A DNA stretch of 64,000 nucleotides from Antarctobacter aquimaris (lineage in GTDB: Bacteria; Pseudomonadota; Alphaproteobacteria; Rhodobacterales; Rhodobacteraceae). Below the pieces are notes generated by a model. It ran no database searches, was not told where the DNA came from, and saw only the letters and a program-made list of their open reading frames with translations. A program made the position numbers and the translations under genes. The DNA is taken from contig NZ_FXYF01000004.1 in the NCBI RefSeq assembly GCF_900184945.1, positions 62,001 to 126,000 on the forward strand, given 5' to 3'. Positions within the stretch are counted from its first letter, which is position 1; each line of letters starts with the position of its first letter. Below are positions 25,690-32,931 of this stretch, one piece after another.

Positions 25690-25879
25690 GCGATTTCAAC
25701 CCCGGAACACATTCCAAAAAAATACGTATTCCATGCATGTTATATGTCTTGATCTGCCTCAAGGTGAAGCCCCGCCGCATGGAGGATGCTCAAGCCATCA
25801 ACAACGCCCCAATGAGGTCAACGAGTAGCCGATTTCCTCAGTTCAGGCGTGAAGCATGCAATGCCGTGGGAGAGACGAC

Positions 25880-26800
25880 ATGCAGACAGTCCGAAGACAC
25901 CTCGCCATCCTGTTCGCCCTGGTCCTGGGGGCGTTTTCCCCGGCCATGGCGCAGACCACCGCCGAAACGCTGACCTTCGACGCGGGCAGCCGTGCCGACG
26001 ACGTGACCGCGATCATCAAGTCGCTGGCCCCGACCGCCGGAACAACCGCGCCGCCGCCGGTCATCACGCATCGCCTGCCGAACGTGTTCCTGCCGCCGGT
26101 GATCGTGGGAAGGCCGACAACCGTCATCATCGATCGCCGGCCGATCGTGCTGGACTATCGCTACAGCCTGGACCTGACGATCTACTTTGCGCATGACAGC
26201 GCCTTCCTGACGCCCCAGGCGCGGGACCACCTGTCGCTGATCGGCCAGGCACTGGCGGCGCCGGACCTGGCCAACTACCGCTACCTGATCGCCGGGCACA
26301 CCGACGCGCGCGGGCCGGACGACTACAACGTCGACCTGTCCTACCGCCGTGCGTGGGCGGTGAAACGCTACCTCATGCGCTACCACATGATCCCGTCCTG
26401 GCGGCTGGAAGTGGTTGGCTGGGGCGAGCGGTATCCGCGCAACCCGCTGGACCCCTACGCTGCCGAGAATCGGCGCGTGGAGATCACCCTGATCGACGCC
26501 ATCCAGCCCATCGTGCCGCAACCGCTGCCGATGCCGGCGCCGCAACCCACGCCACTGCCGCAGACCAGCGACGTGACCCCGCCGCCCATGCCGCAGCCGC
26601 AACCCATGCTGCCGCCGCAGGCCGGATCCTACTACGTCCCGGCGCTGCCGCCCTGCCCCGCGGGCGTGGTCGGCCAGGACGGCATGACGCTGGATCTCGA
26701 CGACTTCACGCCGGAGCCGGGGGTCGACTGCGATCCCATGCTGCCGGCCAGCGGACGCGTCATCGTCCAGCCCGACGGCCGCATGATCGTCGTGAACTGA
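25880..26800 (+). CDS. OmpA-family exported protein with Pro-rich tail
   Basis: A 306-residue protein with a signal peptide (cleavage near AMA-QTT). An OmpA-C-like peptidoglycan-binding domain spans about 95-200: YFAHDSAFLTPQA, then LIAGHTDARG with the ligand-binding Asp, and ENRRVEITL with the conserved Arg. A Pro/Gln/Met-rich stretch (about 205-250) leads to a short Cys-containing C-terminal segment. It would tether a periplasmic complex to the cell wall. First gene of a six-gene exported set; start chosen at the Met before the clear signal sequence. Confidence 0.85.
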   Translation: MQTVRRHLAILFALVLGAFSPAMAQTTAETLTFDAGSRADDVTAIIKSLAPTAGTTAPPPVITHRLPNVFLPPVIVGRPTTVIIDRRPIVLDYRYSLDLTIYFAHDSAFLTPQARDHLSLIGQALAAPDLANYRYLIAGHTDARGPDDYNVDLSYRRAWAVKRYLMRYHMIPSWRLEVVGWGERYPRNPLDPYAAENRRVEITLIDAIQPIVPQPLPMPAPQPTPLPQTSDVTPPPMPQPQPMLPPQAGSYYVPALPPCPAGVVGQDGMTLDLDDFTPEPGVDCDPMLPASGRVIVQPDGRMIVVN

Positions 26801-26806
26801 CCCACC

Positions 26807-26835
26807 GGCCCCGGGCCGACAGCCGGTCCGGGGCC
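26807..26835 (+). terminator. Hairpin between first and second genes of the operon
   Basis: An 8-bp stem (GGCCCCGG / CCGGGGCC) with a 13-nt loop in the 66-bp gap. It may tune relative expression rather than end transcription, because the next gene follows closely on the same strand. Confidence 0.4.
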
Positions 26836-26866
26836 CGTTCCGAACCCATTCCCAAAGGAGACCTCC

Positions 26867-27853
26867 ATGAAACCTCTCTTCAAGGGCCTGACGGCCGTCT
26901 TCACGACCCTCGCGCTGGTTCTGGCGCTGACGGTCGCCCCGGCTCCGGCACAGGCCGGAGACCAGCCCAACATCCTGCCCGTGCCCGAGGACTTCGACCT
27001 CGACACCGTGCCCGGCAACTCGCGCGTGTTCGAACGGGTGCTGCGCGCCATCATCACCGAGATGCAGACCCAGGGCTTTCGCGTCTATGACCAGACCGGC
27101 CTCATCATGGGCTTCACCGACCCGAACCGGGTCCGCCGCAGCGATGCCGAGCTGATCGCCCTGGCGCAGCGGGTGCCCAACGTGCCGATCGACGTGATCC
27201 TGCCGATCCAGATCTACGCCTCGGCCGATCAAAATCCCTACATCCCCGACGTGGTCGACCTGCGCATCCGCGTCACCGGCCGGATGCTGCACGCGCAGAC
27301 CATGCAGAACCTGGGCAACTTCGAGGTCGCCTTCGGCCCCGGTGCCAACGAGCTGCCGGTCGCCTCGCTGCCGCGCAACTGCGGGCGCGACTGCGTGCTG
27401 GAGCATGTCGGCAAGGAAGCGCAGACCATCGCCTCGGCGGTCGGCTCGGCGCTGGCGATGAAGCTGGACGTGCTGTCCCCGGCCAGCCCGCAGCCCGCAC
27501 CGCAGCAGCCCGTCGTCGGCATGACCCCGGTCCAGCCGCAGCCCATGGTGCCGATGGCGCCCTCCGGCTGCACCGGCCTGACCACCGCCTACACGCTGGC
27601 CTTCGCCGGGTTCCAGCCGCAGGAAATGACCCTGATCGAAGGCTACCTCGCCGGCTTCAAGGGCTATGACCACCACCGCCCCGTGCGCGTGACCATGACC
27701 ACGGCCGACTACTGGTACGAAACCTGCTCGGACGTGGCCCGGCTGAACCGCAACCTGCGCCTGATGACCGAGGCGATGGGCGTGCAGGCGCAGATCTCGA
27801 TGGCGGGCAACCGCTTCGAGATCCGCAAGGTCGGGCTCATGGGCAACCGCTGA
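26867..27853 (+). CDS. Exported hypothetical protein, possibly CsgG-like
   Basis: A 328-residue protein with a signal peptide (cleavage near AQA-GDQ). Residues about 40-200 alternate helix and strand (RVFERVLRAIITEMQTQGFRV by region, PIDVILPIQIYAS, LRIRVTGRMLHAQT) in a way that recalls the CsgG/FlgO-type fold, but this is a visual impression. A Pro/Gln-rich linker (about 203-225) precedes a C-terminal domain with two cysteines (CTGLT, ETCSD). It is flanked by OmpA-like and trypsin-like genes of the same run. Function unknown. Confidence 0.7.
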   Translation: MKPLFKGLTAVFTTLALVLALTVAPAPAQAGDQPNILPVPEDFDLDTVPGNSRVFERVLRAIITEMQTQGFRVYDQTGLIMGFTDPNRVRRSDAELIALAQRVPNVPIDVILPIQIYASADQNPYIPDVVDLRIRVTGRMLHAQTMQNLGNFEVAFGPGANELPVASLPRNCGRDCVLEHVGKEAQTIASAVGSALAMKLDVLSPASPQPAPQQPVVGMTPVQPQPMVPMAPSGCTGLTTAYTLAFAGFQPQEMTLIEGYLAGFKGYDHHRPVRVTMTTADYWYETCSDVARLNRNLRLMTEAMGVQAQISMAGNRFEIRKVGLMGNR

Positions 27854-27863
27854 GCCCGGCCCA

Positions 27864-27894
27864 AGGACGCGCGCCCCGTCCCGGCGCGCGTCCT
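27864..27894 (+). terminator. Strong hairpin between the hypothetical and trypsin-like genes
   Basis: A perfect 12-bp stem (AGGACGCGCGCC / GGCGCGCGTCCT) with a 7-nt loop begins 10 nt after the stop. Since the run of co-directional genes continues 36 nt later, it may act as a partial terminator or mRNA processing element. Confidence 0.55.
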
Positions 27895-27929
27895 CCTCCG
27901 AACCGCTTCCAACCAGGACGGATTCCCCG

Positions 27930-28871
27930 ATGCCCCGCTTGCCCCTCATCCGCCTTGCCACCGCGCTGACCCTGGCGCTGTCCGGCACGGCCCTGGCACA
28001 GGTCGCCACATTCGACCCTGCGGAATACGGGCATGTCGATCTTGTCCTGCGCGAAAGCACCGGCAACGCCAGCGCCTACATCGCCGCCCAGGACGGCGCG
28101 TTCGAGCCGATCCGCGAACTGCCGCAGGACGACCCGATCCGCCGCATCGCCGGCGCCATCGGCCGGCTGGACCTGCTGCAAAGAAACCCCGACGGCAGCC
28201 GCGGCCTTGTCACCTGCACCGGCGCGATCCTGCCCGGCGGCTGGGTGCTGACCAACCACCACTGCATTCCGCAGGACGGCGACAGCCAGCTGCTTGCCGC
28301 GTCGATCCTGACCGGCTACCTGACCCAGGGCGACACCGGCACGCACCGCTACACCCTCTCCTTGGCACCGCAGGACTGGCACAAGGTGCTGGACTTCAGC
28401 CTGGTGCGCATGACCGACCTGCCCGCCGACATCCTGCCCCTGATGATCGAGGATGTGGAGGTCGACCCCGGCGACTCGCTGATGGTCATCCATCACCCGC
28501 TGGGCAAACCGCAGGTCATGACCCGCTTTCGCTGCTTTGCCACGCGTGACCAGGACGGCAGCCCGATCCTGCGCCACCGCTGCGACACCCAGCCGGGCAG
28601 TTCCGGGTCGATCCTGTTCGACCGCGCGCTGCATCCCGTCGCGCTGCACCATTCCGGCGGCATGACGCCCAACGACGACACCAGCTTCAACAAGAGCACG
28701 CGGATCTCCGCGATCCTCCAGGCCTCCGACCTGCTGCGCGAGATCACCGGCCAGGCGCGCACCGTCCCGGCGGCCGGCCCGATGCCGGTCGAACGCAGCG
28801 CCCCCGAGGCCACGACCCCGCGCCCCGGCCTTTCGGTCGGCGGCGTCAACGATCTTCTGCGCGGCAATTGA
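27930..28871 (+). CDS. Exported trypsin-like serine protease
   Basis: A 313-residue secreted protease of the chymotrypsin fold. After the signal peptide (cleavage near ALA-QVA), the catalytic triad is visible: His in VLTNHHCI, Asp in VLDFSLVRM and Ser in TQPGSSGSIL. Cysteines in CTGAI/HHC and RFRCFA/HRCDTQ suggest two disulfides. The N-terminal 90 residues are an unrecognised pre-domain that could act as a propeptide. The C-terminus is Pro-rich. It lies in the exported OmpA/caspase run, so it may process or be processed by a neighbour; that is inference. Confidence 0.88.
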   Translation: MPRLPLIRLATALTLALSGTALAQVATFDPAEYGHVDLVLRESTGNASAYIAAQDGAFEPIRELPQDDPIRRIAGAIGRLDLLQRNPDGSRGLVTCTGAILPGGWVLTNHHCIPQDGDSQLLAASILTGYLTQGDTGTHRYTLSLAPQDWHKVLDFSLVRMTDLPADILPLMIEDVEVDPGDSLMVIHHPLGKPQVMTRFRCFATRDQDGSPILRHRCDTQPGSSGSILFDRALHPVALHHSGGMTPNDDTSFNKSTRISAILQASDLLREITGQARTVPAAGPMPVERSAPEATTPRPGLSVGGVNDLLRGN

Positions 28872-28904
28872 CCCCGCGACCGTCCCTTGAAAAGGAGCCG
28901 TCCC

Positions 28905-29594
28905 ATGACCCGATCCCTCCGCAGCCCCTTCCGCAAGCTGGGTCTTGCGCTTGGCCTTGCGCTGCTCGCGCTGCCGGCGTTCGCTGACCAGGCCGCTGAC
29001 GTCGACGCGCTGATCCGCCAGCTGGCCCCGGTGGAAACCCAGCAGGAAAGCGCGGCCCCCGCCCCCGAATCCGTCGAGGTGCATGGCAAGCGCATCTGGA
29101 TCGTCCCTTATCACCGGGTCGATCTGGAGGTGTATTTCGCCTTCGACAGTTCCGAGCTGACCTGGCGTGCGCAGCAGGACCTGACGGCGCTGGGCCATGC
29201 GCTGTCCTCGCAGCAGCTGCGCCCGCACCGCTATCTGATCGCCGGGCACACCGATGCGACGGGCGATGCGGGGCACAACCAGTGGCTGTCGGAACGCCGC
29301 GCCGAGGCGGTGGTGCGCTTCCTGATCAACAATTTCCCGATCGAGCCGTACCGCCTGCTGGCGGTGGGCTGGGGCGAAAGCCGGCTCAAGACCCCCGCCA
29401 CCCCCAACGCCGCGATCAACCGCCGGGTCGAGGTGGTGCTGATGCTGCCGGTGGAATCCAATGCGCCGGTCGCCCCCGAGGTCGGCCCGGCGACACCGCC
29501 CGCCGCCGCAGCCCCGCCCGCCGCCGCGCCCGAGGCGCCCCTGCCCGGCACCATCACCACCGACAAGGACGGCAAGGTGACGATCACCTGGTAA
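28905..29594 (+). CDS. Second OmpA-family exported protein
   Basis: A 229-residue protein with a signal peptide (cleavage near AFA-DQA). The OmpA-C-like domain spans about 65-175 (VYFAFDSSELTWRAQQ, LIAGHTDATG, INRRVEVVLML) and is similar to that of the first gene of the run, including the LLAVGWGESR / LEVVGWGERY segment. The C-terminus is Ala/Pro-rich and ends KVTITW. Two related peptidoglycan-binding anchors in one operon suggest a wall-anchored complex. AAAGGAG precedes the start. Confidence 0.88.
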   Translation: MTRSLRSPFRKLGLALGLALLALPAFADQAADVDALIRQLAPVETQQESAAPAPESVEVHGKRIWIVPYHRVDLEVYFAFDSSELTWRAQQDLTALGHALSSQQLRPHRYLIAGHTDATGDAGHNQWLSERRAEAVVRFLINNFPIEPYRLLAVGWGESRLKTPATPNAAINRRVEVVLMLPVESNAPVAPEVGPATPPAAAAPPAAAPEAPLPGTITTDKDGKVTITW

Positions 29595-29646
29595 CCGGGG
29601 CCAGGCGGCGACCCCGCCGCCCTCCCCCCACCGGAAAGGCTTCGCG

Positions 29647-31488
29647 ATGAAACGCTCGCTGCTTCTGGCTTCACTGGCGCTGGCCGTCATGGTCGGCGCC
29701 CTGACCGGCCCCGGCCGGGCCGAGGACGCGCCGGTCGTGCTGTCGGGCCACAAGGGCGCGCTCGAGGATGCCGAGTTCAGCCCGGACGGCCTGCATGTTC
29801 TGACCGGCAGCGCCGACTGGACCGCCGAGCTGTGGGAGCTGTCGAGCGCGCGCAGCCTGCTGATCCTGGATGCGCACCTGCACCGGGTCAGCGGTGTCGC
29901 CTTCAGCCCGGACGGCACCCGCGCGGTCACCGTCGGCGCGGACGGCGCGCTGCGGCTCTGGGATCTCGCCACCGGCGACGAAGTGCTGACCGTCGAACGC
30001 GAAGGCCAGCGCTTTACCTCCGTCGCCTTCAGCCCGAACGGGCGGCAGGCCGTCACCGGCGGCAACGACGGCACCGCCCGCCTGTGGGACCTGCGCAGCG
30101 GCGCGCAACTGCGCGTGTTCGAAGGCCACACCGACGCCGTCACCGACATCGCCCTCAGCCCCGATGGCACCCGCCTGCTGACCGGCAGCACGGACCGCAC
30201 GGCGCGGCTCTGGGACGTGGCCAGTGGTGCTGCGCTGAAAAGCTTCGCAGGGCACGAGGCGCTGATCCTCGCCGTTGCCTATGCGCCCGACGGCAAACAG
30301 GTGCTGACCGGCAGCTGGGACAAGACCGCCCGCCTCTGGGACGTGGACACCGGGCGCGAGCTGCGCCGCTTTCCCGGTCATGATGCCGCGATCCGCGCCG
30401 TCGCCTTCAGCCCGGACGGCGCGCTGGTGCTGACCGGCGAATGGAACAACACCGCCTGGCTGTGGAACACCGCGACGGGTGAGGAGATCCGGTCGTTCAC
30501 CGGGCACACCGCCTCGATCGACGCGGTCGCCTTTGCGCCGGACGGCCGGCGGCTGCTGACCGGCAGCTGGGACGGCACGGCGATGATCTGGCCGGTGCCC
30601 GAAGCCTACTGGCCACAGGGCGCGCCACAGGACGCGCCACGGGTCGCCGTGGCCACGCCACCGCCCAGGCCCGCCCCGGCCAAACCCGCCGCGCCGCCAC
30701 CGCGCCCGGTGTCCCGGCCCGACATGCTGGTGGTGGTGATCGGCAACCGCACCTATGCCGAGGCGCCGCCCGTGTCCTATGCCCGCAATGACGCCGAGGC
30801 CATCGCCCGCTATTTCGAGACCACGCTGGGCGTGCCGCCGGAAAACGTCATCGTCGAGCTGGACCTGACCTCGATCGGCATGAACCGCCTGTTCGGCACC
30901 GAGGACCTGCCCGAAGGCCGGCTGGCCCGCCGCGCGCGCTTTGTCGACGAAATCGTCGTCTACTATTCCGGTCACGGCGTCCCGGTGTTCCGCGCCGAGG
31001 GCCTGCCCATCGGCTACCTGCTGCCGGTCGACGTGCCCGCCGCGCAGCCCGGCTTTGGCGCCTACCCGCTGGACCTGCTGATCCGCCAGCTGGAGGACCT
31101 GCCGGTCAAACGCGTGATCCTGATGATGGACGCCTGTTTCTCGGGCCTGTCGACGCAGGGCAGCCTGGTGCCCAATGTCTCGGGCGCCTTCGGCGTCGCC
31201 ATCGCACCGCCGCAGGAAAGGGCCAAGGTCTCGGTCCTGACCGCCACCGATTTCCGCACGCCGCAATTCGCCCACTGGCTGGACGACAAGGAACACGGCG
31301 CCTTCTCGTGGTTCGTGCTCGAAGGGTTGAAGGGCGCCGCCGACCACGATGGCGACGGGTTGATCCACCTCAGCGAGCTGCGCGACTATGTCGACAAGTC
31401 GCTGGCGATGCGCGATCTGGTGCAAAGCCCCAGCCTGATGCCCGGCAGCGAGGACTCCGTGCTGGCCGAATTCACGCGGGGCGAGTAG
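29647..31488 (+). CDS. Exported WD40 beta-propeller fused to a caspase-like (C14) domain
   Basis: A 613-residue protein. A signal peptide (1-25) is followed by seven WD40 repeats at about 34-63, 76-106, 119-147, 160-189, 202-231, 244-273 and 286-315, enough for a closed propeller. A Pro-rich linker (322-357) leads to a peptidase C14 domain (about 359-600) with the His-Cys dyad H443 in YYSGHG and C497 in DACFSG. An EF-hand-like loop DHDGDGLIHLSEL (567-579) could bind Ca2+, a common cofactor of orthocaspases. Both catalytic residues are intact, so activity is likely. It lies in an exported set with OmpA-like and trypsin-like proteins; export of a caspase homologue is notable. Confidence 0.92.
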   Translation: MKRSLLLASLALAVMVGALTGPGRAEDAPVVLSGHKGALEDAEFSPDGLHVLTGSADWTAELWELSSARSLLILDAHLHRVSGVAFSPDGTRAVTVGADGALRLWDLATGDEVLTVEREGQRFTSVAFSPNGRQAVTGGNDGTARLWDLRSGAQLRVFEGHTDAVTDIALSPDGTRLLTGSTDRTARLWDVASGAALKSFAGHEALILAVAYAPDGKQVLTGSWDKTARLWDVDTGRELRRFPGHDAAIRAVAFSPDGALVLTGEWNNTAWLWNTATGEEIRSFTGHTASIDAVAFAPDGRRLLTGSWDGTAMIWPVPEAYWPQGAPQDAPRVAVATPPPRPAPAKPAAPPPRPVSRPDMLVVVIGNRTYAEAPPVSYARNDAEAIARYFETTLGVPPENVIVELDLTSIGMNRLFGTEDLPEGRLARRARFVDEIVVYYSGHGVPVFRAEGLPIGYLLPVDVPAAQPGFGAYPLDLLIRQLEDLPVKRVILMMDACFSGLSTQGSLVPNVSGAFGVAIAPPQERAKVSVLTATDFRTPQFAHWLDDKEHGAFSWFVLEGLKGAADHDGDGLIHLSELRDYVDKSLAMRDLVQSPSLMPGSEDSVLAEFTRGE

Positions 31489-31491
31489 GCC

Positions 31492-32931
31492 ATGGGACGG
31501 GCGCGCCGCCTGCTGGGCCTTGGACTGCTGGTGCTGCTGCCCTGGCTGCCGCACGAGGCCCCGGCGCAGGCCGAGACGCAGCTTGGGGCCGAGCTGTGCA
31601 GCGCCGCGCGCGCCGCGATCCCGGCCGGCAGCCGCATCGTTCTGGCCCCGCCCGCCGCCGCCGACACCCCCCTGCCGGTGGCCGAGGTCGAGGCGATCAT
31701 GAGCCGCGCGGCCCAGGCCATGTGCGCCGACTGGCCCGACCGCCCGCGCATCCTGGCCGGCAGTTCGGAATTGCAGGCCTCGCTGGCGCTGATCCGCGAC
31801 AGGCAAGGCCCTGAGGCCTGGCGCAAGACCTTTGACGCGACCGTCCGGCAGGCGGCCGAGTTCGTCCTGGTCGGCGAAACCGGCCTGTCGGGCGGCGCGG
31901 TCACGCTGCGCCTGACGCTGGTCGCGCTGGAGGACGGGCAGGTCATCGTCAAGACGCCGGACATCCCGCTGACCGGCCTCGCCCTGCCCGCCGCTGGCGA
32001 CCCGCGCGCCGCCATCGCCGATGCCGTGCGCCAGTTCCAGGACACGCTGCCCGCCGCGCGCGAAGATATCACCGTGGGCCGCTTCGCGAACGAGGTGACA
32101 GGGCTGGAGACCGCCGCCGGGCGGGCGCTGGCCGAAATGGTGGTCGAGGCCTGGCTCGACAGTGCCAACTCGATCACCGCGATGCTGCGCGATGCGGCGC
32201 CCGCCCAGGTCCACCGGGGCGATCCGCCGGAGGCCGGCTTTGCCCTGACCGGCACGGTCCGGCTGATCGACCGCGACCGCTTTCAGCTGGTTCTGCGGCT
32301 GACGCAGGACGGCGTTCTGCACGCGGCGCGCACGCTCGACCTGTCGACGCTGCAACTGCCGCCGCAACTGCGCGAACTGCTGGACCCCGCCGCCCTGCCG
32401 CGCGACGACAGCCTGTCAAGTTTCACCTCGGCGCTGTCAGCGATGGGCAAGGGCACCCTGCGCATGGTGGCGGGGGGCGGCCGCGACGGCGCCTACCCGA
32501 TCTGCCGCACCAGCGACGCGCGGCGCCTGATGACCGACTGCCGCGACAGCCTGATCCGCCTCAGCCTGACCTCGGACATTGGCGGCGAGTTGCTCTGCCT
32601 GTCGCTGGACGACAGCGGGCTCTTCTACGTCATGCTGCCCAGCCCCTATGCCCCCGCCACCCGCCTGCGCGCCAATCTGCCGCTGACCCTGCCCGACGAC
32701 CTGCCGCTGCTGGCAGACGGCAACCAGGTCCACTGGCCGGCGATGGGGCCGCCGTCGGACACGCTGGTGGGCTGCCTGGTCTACCCGCGCCTGCCGGGCA
32801 CGCTGATGCAGGCGCTGGACCGCTTTGACGGCAAGGCGCTGGATGCGCGTGACCTGTCGGCCCTGCGCATGACCCTGCGCGACTCCGCCCCTGCCGCCGC
32901 CGCCGCCGTGCAGGTCCGCATCATCGACTGA
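31492..32931 (+). CDS. Exported protein with DUF4384-like C-terminus, partner of the caspase gene
   Basis: A 479-residue protein with a signal peptide (cleavage near AQA-ETQ). Residues about 30-180 look like a small alpha/beta domain (GSRIVLAPP, EFVLVGETGLSGGAVTLRLTLVALEDG) reminiscent of FlgO/CsgG-type proteins. The C-terminal part (about 355-420; GELLCLSLDDSGLFYVMLPS, TLPDDLPL) resembles DUF4384, a domain often found with bacterial caspases. It starts 3 bp after the caspase gene, so the two are almost certainly co-expressed. The family links are by eye. Confidence 0.7.
   Translation: MGRARRLLGLGLLVLLPWLPHEAPAQAETQLGAELCSAARAAIPAGSRIVLAPPAAADTPLPVAEVEAIMSRAAQAMCADWPDRPRILAGSSELQASLALIRDRQGPEAWRKTFDATVRQAAEFVLVGETGLSGGAVTLRLTLVALEDGQVIVKTPDIPLTGLALPAAGDPRAAIADAVRQFQDTLPAAREDITVGRFANEVTGLETAAGRALAEMVVEAWLDSANSITAMLRDAAPAQVHRGDPPEAGFALTGTVRLIDRDRFQLVLRLTQDGVLHAARTLDLSTLQLPPQLRELLDPAALPRDDSLSSFTSALSAMGKGTLRMVAGGGRDGAYPICRTSDARRLMTDCRDSLIRLSLTSDIGGELLCLSLDDSGLFYVMLPSPYAPATRLRANLPLTLPDDLPLLADGNQVHWPAMGPPSDTLVGCLVYPRLPGTLMQALDRFDGKALDARDLSALRMTLRDSAPAAAAAVQVRIID

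Follow-up and report, generated by a model that had tools for sequence, protein, structure and literature searches.

Most discussion of bacterial caspases casts them as cytosolic enzymes of suicide or defence with unknown triggers. What might such an enzyme do outside the inner membrane, next to wall-binding proteins and a second protease? The question is raised by six genes at positions 25880-32931 (plus strand) of a 64,000-nucleotide stretch from Antarctobacter aquimaris (contig NZ_FXYF01000004.1, positions 62,001 to 126,000), referred to here as the window. Their products, all very probably exported to judge from their N-termini, include a caspase, a trypsin-like protease and two OmpA-like proteins, and we regard as roughly evenly balanced the proposition that the operon is a peptidoglycan-anchored sensor-protease module working in the periplasm. 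If a conserved caspase is indeed exported and wall-anchored here, with exchangeable sensor-like domains and another protease at its side, caspase-type signalling would extend to the bacterial envelope.

Six predicted exported proteins

The six open reading frames (ORFs) run uninterrupted in the order described in the original prediction, an earlier reading of this DNA made from its letters. Gene 1 (P0001, 25880..26800, with an alternative start at 25856) encodes a predicted exported OmpA-like peptidoglycan-binding protein, gene 2 (P0002, 26867..27853) a two-domain protein, gene 3 (P0003, 27930..28871) a trypsin-like protease, gene 4 (P0004, 28887..29594) a second OmpA-like protein, gene 5 (P0005, 29647..31488) a seven-WD40 propeller with a caspase, and gene 6 (P0006, 31492..32931) a protein with LpoB-like, PelC/TolB-N-like and C-terminal beta-sandwich domains. 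From the ORF coordinates, the intergenic gaps are 66, 76, 15, 52 and 3 bp in gene order; the 15-bp gap assumes a TTG start of gene 4 at 28887 and becomes 33 bp with the ATG at 28905, and the last one agrees with the 3 bp first reported between the caspase gene and gene 6. No sigma-70-like promoter was recognised at the operon and terminator-like sites were no more frequent than in shuffled sequence, so the case for co-transcription rests on spacing and conservation.

Export was proposed earlier from six signal peptides. All six N-termini pass a crude signal-peptide rule, that of gene 1 ending AFSPAMA, and cysteine content provides an independent sign. Over the related loci introduced below, the rule passed 25/27 caspase, 12/14 trypsin, 25/28 D4384-family (the family of gene 6), 44/46 OmpA and 49/55 P2 (the family of P0002) ORFs, and 0/31 ORFs of the cassette families f6, f7 and f9. 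The mature proteins of genes 1-6 contain 2, 4, 4, 0, 1 and 6 cysteines, the only cysteine of the gene 5 protein being the catalytic C497. Beyond residue 40, three further WD40-caspases, those of L043 (Antarctobacter), L044 and L046 (both Mameliella), likewise have the catalytic cysteine as their only one; in L045 and L047, over-long ORF starts add more cysteines. Even cysteine counts, next to a caspase whose one cysteine is catalytic, fit an oxidising compartment.

The domains and both catalytic residues reported earlier for gene 5 were found. Pfam recognised WD40 in seven stretches (E=3.6e-74) and the caspase domain at 41.5-42.1 bits (PF00656, cut-off 21.4), with H443 in an SGHG motif (codon 30973..30975) and C497 in a DACFSG motif (codon 31135..31137). 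The dyad is kept in 26/26 caspase domains of related loci, and 18.9% of published alphaproteobacterial orthocaspases are reported to lack it (PMC6426788). A further feature, absent from the earlier description, is a stretch at residues 566-577 (31342..31377, DHDGDGLIHLSE) which matches the pattern of a 12-residue EF-hand loop; it scores 12 bits against Pfam EF-hand models, far under their cut-offs, and the six caspases checked score ~12-14 bits, all below the cut-offs. Among the matches listed for the 5.3 Mb genome, the gene 5 caspase is one of five to PF00656, the other four lying at C10:3345-4013, C33:44766-45428, C31:243477-244205 and C11:372534-372842.

The second protease and the two OmpA-like proteins were likewise recovered. 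Gene 3 matches Trypsin_2 (PF13365, E=2.5e-13), and its triad H111, D155, S225, overlooked earlier, is intact. The triad is kept in 14/14 trypsin homologs, all of which have an Asp six residues ahead of the Ser. Two of its four cysteines, C96 and C112, flank the catalytic His, at the position where S1 enzymes hold a disulfide, and the protein carries a conserved C-terminal peptide, GLSxGGxNDLLRGN. No PDZ domain of the HtrA/DegP/DegS type was found in P0003, which matched trypsin models only (Pfam, E<=0.1). Genes 1 and 4 match PF00691 (E=1.1e-18 and 1.6e-20) and have GHTD and RRA motifs, thus retaining the conserved Asp and Arg that matter for wall binding by the OmpA C-terminal domain. Orthologs of gene 1, whose mature part has two cysteines, are 64% identical in genome G242 and 77% in Mameliella L044.

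Structure prediction, which had been proposed for the second and sixth proteins, gave FlgT/CsgG-type and LpoB/PelC-type folds. P0002 matches no Pfam family at E<=0.1, and a PDB sequence search with its family gave nothing credible. Its AlphaFold model has a mean predicted local distance difference test (pLDDT) of 81.7 and a predicted template modelling score (pTM) of 0.67. Residues ~28-205 show a FlgT/CsgG/PelC/TolB-N-like fold, which VIA-align matched to FlgT (Z 11.1, root-mean-square deviation 3.4 over 147), HpaA (Z 10.8), the LPHT ring (9.9), PelC (9.7), and LptE and CsgG (both about 9); with Foldseek, P0002 matched the LPHT ring (E=4.2e-6), GNA1162 (1.6e-5) and FlgT (2.4e-5). Because anticodon-binding domains of polymerase gamma match at similar Z, the fold is a common one and indicates the type of protein, not its function. 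The C-terminal alpha/beta domain (~235-325) had no clear match. Of the four cysteines, C172 and C176 are invariant in a 30-sequence alignment of the family. The earlier label "CsgG-like" therefore holds for the fold and fails for the sequence family, where Pfam finds none; membership of the CsgG family or a role in curli was rejected, there being no sequence-family match and no curli gene in the ten neighbours scanned, with the fold alone shared.

The model of P0006 (pLDDT 81.4, pTM 0.42) is to be trusted more for its single domains than for their mutual arrangement. Residues 23-162 match LpoB (Z 9.8, 9.2, 8.7); residues 167-294 match PelC and TolB-N (Z 8.1 to 6.4) and residues 319-479, at the place of DUF4384, match beta-sandwiches (Z up to 7.0), values of which those below 8 may, by the tool's own warning, reflect merely a common arrangement. 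The TolB/Pal complex 2hqs matched through the N-domain only, and KaiC-type structures with TM-scores of ~0.1 were set aside. P0006 has no Pfam match at E<=0.1, PF14326 (DUF4384) included, and a PDB sequence search with it gave nothing credible. Its Pelagimonas ortholog reaches 24.5 bits against PF14326 (cut-off 27), and two relatives, L040:15889 and L054:7495, exceed the cut-off. A hidden Markov model (HMM) of 18 D4384-family proteins, from which gene 6 orthologs were excluded, detects gene 6 (E=1.4e-10, residues 14-270); the DUF4384 part alone was not significant in that search. "DUF4384-like", as gene 6 had been called, is thus right by homology to relatives and not detectable in the protein itself. 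Together the models strongly indicate that genes 2 and 6 carry the fold of the outer-membrane and periplasmic scaffolds FlgT, LpoB, PelC and TolB-N.

Conservation and modular partners

Among 295 genomes of the organism's family, some C14 match occurs in 60, the window genome included, and close relatives of the gene 5 caspase domain occur in only two others, G242 (76%) and G087 (37%). P0002 is found in 3 of the 295 (the window genome, G242 and G087), each time at most ~9 kb from that caspase. P0006 as query found its own genome only among 61 searched, which makes it a poor bait, and P0002 was therefore used as bait for the family. A scan of 84,980 species genomes yielded 37 loci, with P0002 identities of 86% in Antarctobacter, 80-86% in Mameliella and 62% in Pelagimonas; others lie in Pinisolibacter, Actibacterium, Colwellia, Alteromonas and Aestuariibacter. 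The P2 family was detected in 20/385 genomes drawn from the class, 9 of these matches being weak (E above ~1e-20). A phage origin is argued against by the absence of any P0002 match in a collection of 50,697 phage records. One plasmid record, pMaq22A_2p of Methylobacterium aquaticum (L080), has a P0002 relative; it carries caspase, trypsin, OmpA and P0002 genes followed by toxin-antitoxin, integrase and transposase genes. The P0002-type gene is split into two frames at L061:1316-2281 and L077:8296-9200, and the P2 match of G599 contains an in-frame TAG.

Mameliella L044-L047 have all six genes in unchanged order (for L045 and L047, the caspase was located by a scan of all ORFs), and so does Antarctobacter L043, where the contig ends within gene 6. 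Pelagimonas has the six-gene set with two insertions, a D4384 protein in front and a second caspase between genes 2 and 3; second predicted exported caspases of 1167-1171 aa lie at L040:10244-13759 and L048:10995-14498. The ratio of nonsynonymous to synonymous substitution rates (dN/dS) was 0.20-0.44 for every gene between the window and L044 and L047, so all six genes are under purifying selection where measured. The genes flanking the operon in the window, encoding a tetratricopeptide repeat (TPR) protein and a molybdopterin oxidoreductase, were not found in the fetched operon flanks of L044-L048 and L040. Four Mameliella genomes do carry the TPR gene (62-63% identity), in surroundings of 4.6 kb without genes 1, 2, 3 and 6, which indicates that the operon occupies different genomic places in the two genera. 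The recurrence of the same gene set in other genera is more than chance. Of the co-occurrence that the original prediction had proposed to look for, the unit is kept in Mameliella, Antarctobacter and Pelagimonas, and remoter relatives hold only part of it.

We compared 39 loci: the window, two loci from other genomes, one plasmid and 35 of the 37 from the species-genome scan (L049 and L063 were dropped, being from the same genomes as L040 and L041). P2 was the bait, and its presence in them is by construction. A caspase is present in 22, a trypsin in 14, both in 12, OmpA in 31 and the D4384 family in 25; caspase, trypsin or a separate subtilisin occurs in 27, or 28 if the fused one of L078 is counted. 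Fetched flanks of 17/27 P2 loci contain a caspase, compared with ~0.4 expected from at least 84 PF00656 matches in ~124 Mb of 27 genomes (L063 being read through L041). Thirteen of the 17 are among the 84 matches; the four Mameliella caspases are unlisted though they score 37.7-41.2 bits with Pfam, so 84 is a lower bound, and the order of the expectation is unchanged. In the class-drawn P2 genomes, a caspase lies at most 7 kb from P2 in 6/19 (G437, G479, G541, G599, G668, G697), the expectation being ~0.3 for 10 kb on each side (59 matches in ~80 Mb); the sample is partly dependent, as G513 has its caspases at the places seen in the L069 genome, G599 is similar to L061, and a single genus holds both G437 and G541. 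The link between P2 and caspase is real but optional.

The domains attached to the caspase vary. WD40 is the partner in the window, Antarctobacter, Mameliella and Pelagimonas, and in reverse order in L060. Other partners are Sel1 (L041), PAN (the second caspase of L050), FGE-sulfatase (L052, L062), SH3 (L062), DctP solute-binding (L061), PG_binding_1 (L079) and YARHG (L055), and in L040 long repeats weakly like DUF1349, under the cut-off. A subtilisin occurs with no caspase in L064, L066, L071, L073 and L074; for four of the five genomes, PF00656 is missing from the matches listed. In four loci, OmpA is fused to a subtilisin (S8), with both domains over Pfam cut-offs and every protein ending RIKW (L061:2322-4451, L062:3290-5542, L077:9206-11116, L078:96-2021); by its predicted product, this fusion joins anchor and protease physically. 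Kinases with FGE domains are found in L064, L067 and L071, with PG-binding domains as well in L064. From these domain combinations, the window operon very likely belongs to one modular family.

Exported proteases with intact catalytic residues adjoining anchors could also serve housekeeping proteolysis of the envelope, such as shedding or maturation of surface or OmpA-anchored proteins during growth, with no sensing involved; the conserved C-terminal peptides could then be docking or processing tags. The patchy distribution (3/295 genomes in the family, 20/385 in the class) and the swapping of sensor-like domains favour an accessory system instead, and we consider a housekeeping role improbable.

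A proposed periplasmic module and its known counterparts

For a sensor-protease module anchored to peptidoglycan, we infer trigger, substrate and cascade order as follows. The products of genes 1, 2, 4 and 6 would hold the caspase at the wall or outer membrane, and the gene 5 propeller would be a sensor or a docking part, the latter by analogy, because the TolB propeller docks the OmpA-like Pal. Envelope disturbance or ligand binding would release or activate the caspase, and the trypsin-like protease would act above or below it, cutting envelope proteins. The nearest named relatives of the organism suggest life in sea water, as we assume here; external calcium would then be high and the EF-hand-like loop, should it bind calcium, would be constantly occupied, leaving the sensor or zymogen cleavage to exert control. 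The original prediction is supported on export of all six proteins, on their place in the envelope and on the association of the caspase with another protease and with wall anchors, and the nearest genera conserve the genes as a unit; a proteolytic cascade or a damage trigger is still a hypothesis. The Mameliella and Antarctobacter isolates would offer a compact system for asking what bacterial caspases sense and cut.

Several observations weigh against this reading. First, the signal rule is loose: if the start is left free, 99/218 other ORFs pass; ORFs of the membrane families f8 (4/10) and f20 (3/4) pass too, and one of the 25 passing caspases, that of L062, does so through a stretch inside the caspase domain. 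Second, the lone-cysteine pattern is lost in the Pelagimonas caspases, which have 2 or 3, and the EF-hand-like loop is present in 13/26 related caspase domains and missing from the other half. Third, the association is not obligatory: 17/39 loci have no caspase, and 12/39 have no caspase, trypsin or separate subtilisin (11 counting the OmpA-S8 protein of L078), some of them on short contigs. Fourth, in 13/19 of the P2 genomes drawn by class, the 10 kb on either side of P2 contain no caspase; 7 of the 13 lack any caspase match, and others, for example G530, G605 (19 caspases), G619 and G696, have caspases elsewhere only. Lastly, metabolism and regulation account for the ten neighbours scanned in the window, with no defence genes among them.

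Comparison with described systems places the operon near several of them. Like prokaryotic orthocaspases and metacaspases (PF00656), gene 5 has a p20 domain over the Pfam cut-off, an H/C dyad and a WD40 partner; unlike the published orthocaspases, it is predicted to be exported with a single cysteine, in an operon that also encodes another exported protease, a pair of OmpA anchors and two proteins with scaffold folds of outer-membrane type. WD40 and DUF4384 are both reported as orthocaspase partners (PMC7475262), DUF4384 in 23 cyanobacterial orthocaspases (PMC8283722). In Rhizobiales, trypsin, a QC-type p20 and DUF4384 are combined in one protein (PMC6426788), which thus unites counterparts of genes 3, 5 and 6 with an intact trypsin triad; their p20 is a QC pseudo-orthocaspase, whereas in the window the dyad is intact, the parts are separate and accompanied by OmpA and P0002, and DUF4384 is recognisable only in relatives of gene 6.

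As a works-like list of parts, Tol-Pal offers a TolB-N-like domain, a beta-propeller and an OmpA-like wall binder. In the window, however, the propeller is built of seven WD40 stretches and continues into a caspase, TolB-N-like domains sit on separate proteins, and the operon is without TolQRA; the four MotA_ExbB matches of the genome lie on contigs other than that of the operon. LpoB, FlgT, CsgG and PelC resemble the N-domain of P0002 and two domains of P0006 in predicted fold only; the window proteins have no sequence-family match to them, no lipobox reported and other domains attached.

Exported caspases themselves are not new, which qualifies the earlier remark that bacterial caspases are mostly discussed as cytoplasmic: the window set does appear exported, and a 2012 survey already discusses extracellular metacaspase roles (PMC3501461), while a secreted Bradyrhizobium caspase with YARHG domains has been described (PMC3355149). 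The 2012 survey counts OmpA in 14/217 metacaspase operons and a putative peptidoglycan-binding domain in 11 sequences. The claim that no example of this set had been characterised stands for the assembly and not for its fragments, OmpA operons and trypsin-p20-DUF4384 fusions being in print; among the literature matches listed, there was no description of the six-gene operon or of the P0002 family, Dataset S1 of PMC3501461, which possibly lists such operons, lying beyond that coverage.

A periplasmic system for antiphage or fratricidal conflict, the exported counterpart of caspase/trypsin systems of multicellular bacteria, would account for the patchy occurrence, once on a plasmid, and for parts (caspase, trypsin, FGE, Sel1, OmpA, with modular swapping) that overlap with those of the VMAP/iSTAND ternary systems, described as cytosolic or membrane-near conflict systems (PMC7159879); extracellular metacaspases acting on neighbours have also been proposed (PMC3501461). 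The window operon departs from those ternary systems in its predicted export and in having no MoxR, vWA or STAND among the six proteins (for P0005, among the best 25 of 53 families) or the ten neighbours scanned, the same check finding no VMAP or iSTAND. Trypsin- and caspase-activated nucleases, as in Canu and related gated nuclease-protease defence, involve an MBL-type nuclease (PMC12799240), and none was found among the six proteins or the ten neighbours; nor do the six proteins contain a toxin domain or another nuclease domain, and the phage collection holds no P0002 relative. PADLOC matches are partial only: ZorB/MotB models fall on the OmpA domains (best 2.3e-6), a HEAT-ARM model of 1972 positions on the WD40 part (4.8e-21) and a caspase model reaches 0.0013. 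We consider a conflict role very improbable. Nor do the ten neighbours scanned support a defence-island setting.

Terminal tryptophans and an unannotated cassette

Of the six window proteins, only that of gene 4 has a terminal Trp, in the peptide TDKDGKVTITW (29559..29591). Across the loci, Trp endings were counted in complete ORFs of OmpA (21/44), P2 (15/54), separate subtilisins (5/5) and trypsins (2/14), in total 43/117 versus 3/300 other ORFs, a count that overstates independence since the rows are related to one another. Such tails were noted in the window and in L061, L062, L064, L066, L071, L073, L074, L077 and L078, in many cases with a DGI or DxxG motif ahead of them. That four unrelated protein families end alike suggests a common signal for docking or sorting.

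P2 also occurs alongside families 5-9, 13-16 and 20 in 12/39 loci (L041, L066, L067, L069-L072, L074-L076, L079, L080). At L074:12042-20327, an unannotated cassette of up to 11 genes lies beside a P0002 homolog, as such cassettes do in Alpha- and Gammaproteobacteria. Of ten L074 cassette members, Pfam at E<=0.1 recognises one, a lytic transglycosylase (SLT, E=4.6e-24), and none scores above cut-off in NCBIfam. Family 9 is a short protein with, by eye, one helix of the MotB kind. Family 20 has no Pfam family and no credible PDB chain, elastase rows being taken as chance; it weakly matches, at the pore helices, a profile of three TolQ/ExbB/MotA-type proteins (P=0.0012, reversed control 0.049), and the three taken singly gave P=0.61, 0.52 and 0.0092. 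The three are the window genome's own, its fourth match, L083, having been left out.

A rival reading makes the window operon the self-standing protease arm of a bigger envelope machine, as yet undescribed, in which the cassette would provide a lytic transglycosylase, a possible pair of MotA/TolQ-like and MotB-like proteins and cytosolic partners, and the protease modules would be effectors or cargo. The co-occurrence in 12/39 loci, the SLT domain, the weak pore-helix match and the Trp tails speak for it, as does the presence of family 7 in 13/22 P2 genomes searched (9/18 outside the set from which its profile was built). Among those nine, family 7 is strong in G326, G336, G339, G340 and G344 and weaker in G329, G331, G338 and G341; it lies on a contig other than that of the P2 locus in G336, G339 and G340, and just beyond the fetched flank in G326. 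On the other side, neither the window genome nor those of L044, L047, L048 and five other loci or genomes searched gave a family 7 match, so that the module can stand alone; the motor reading depends on weak similarity, the single-sequence comparisons of family 20 giving P=0.61, 0.52 and 0.0092; and caspases (1/27) and D4384 proteins (0/27) do not share the Trp endings. As far as this one marker tells, the window would carry the protease half alone. We hold the larger-machine explanation to be somewhat unlikely.

A broader and doubtful reading is that P0002 marks a scattered, undescribed proteobacterial envelope machine, of which the window operon would be the self-sufficient caspase form, a periplasmic analogue of the inflammasome. 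Such a machine would span the wall and combine outer-membrane scaffolds of FlgT/LpoB type with a lytic transglycosylase and a pair resembling a proton channel, and its caspase, trypsin and subtilisin would be interchangeable and held partly by C-terminal Trp tails. As a marker, P0002 opens a set of unannotated envelope genes.

In the window itself, the operon is preceded by transporter genes, a nitrilase-type hydrolase and the molybdopterin oxidoreductase, and followed by the TPR protein on the opposite strand and then a sigma-54-type regulator.

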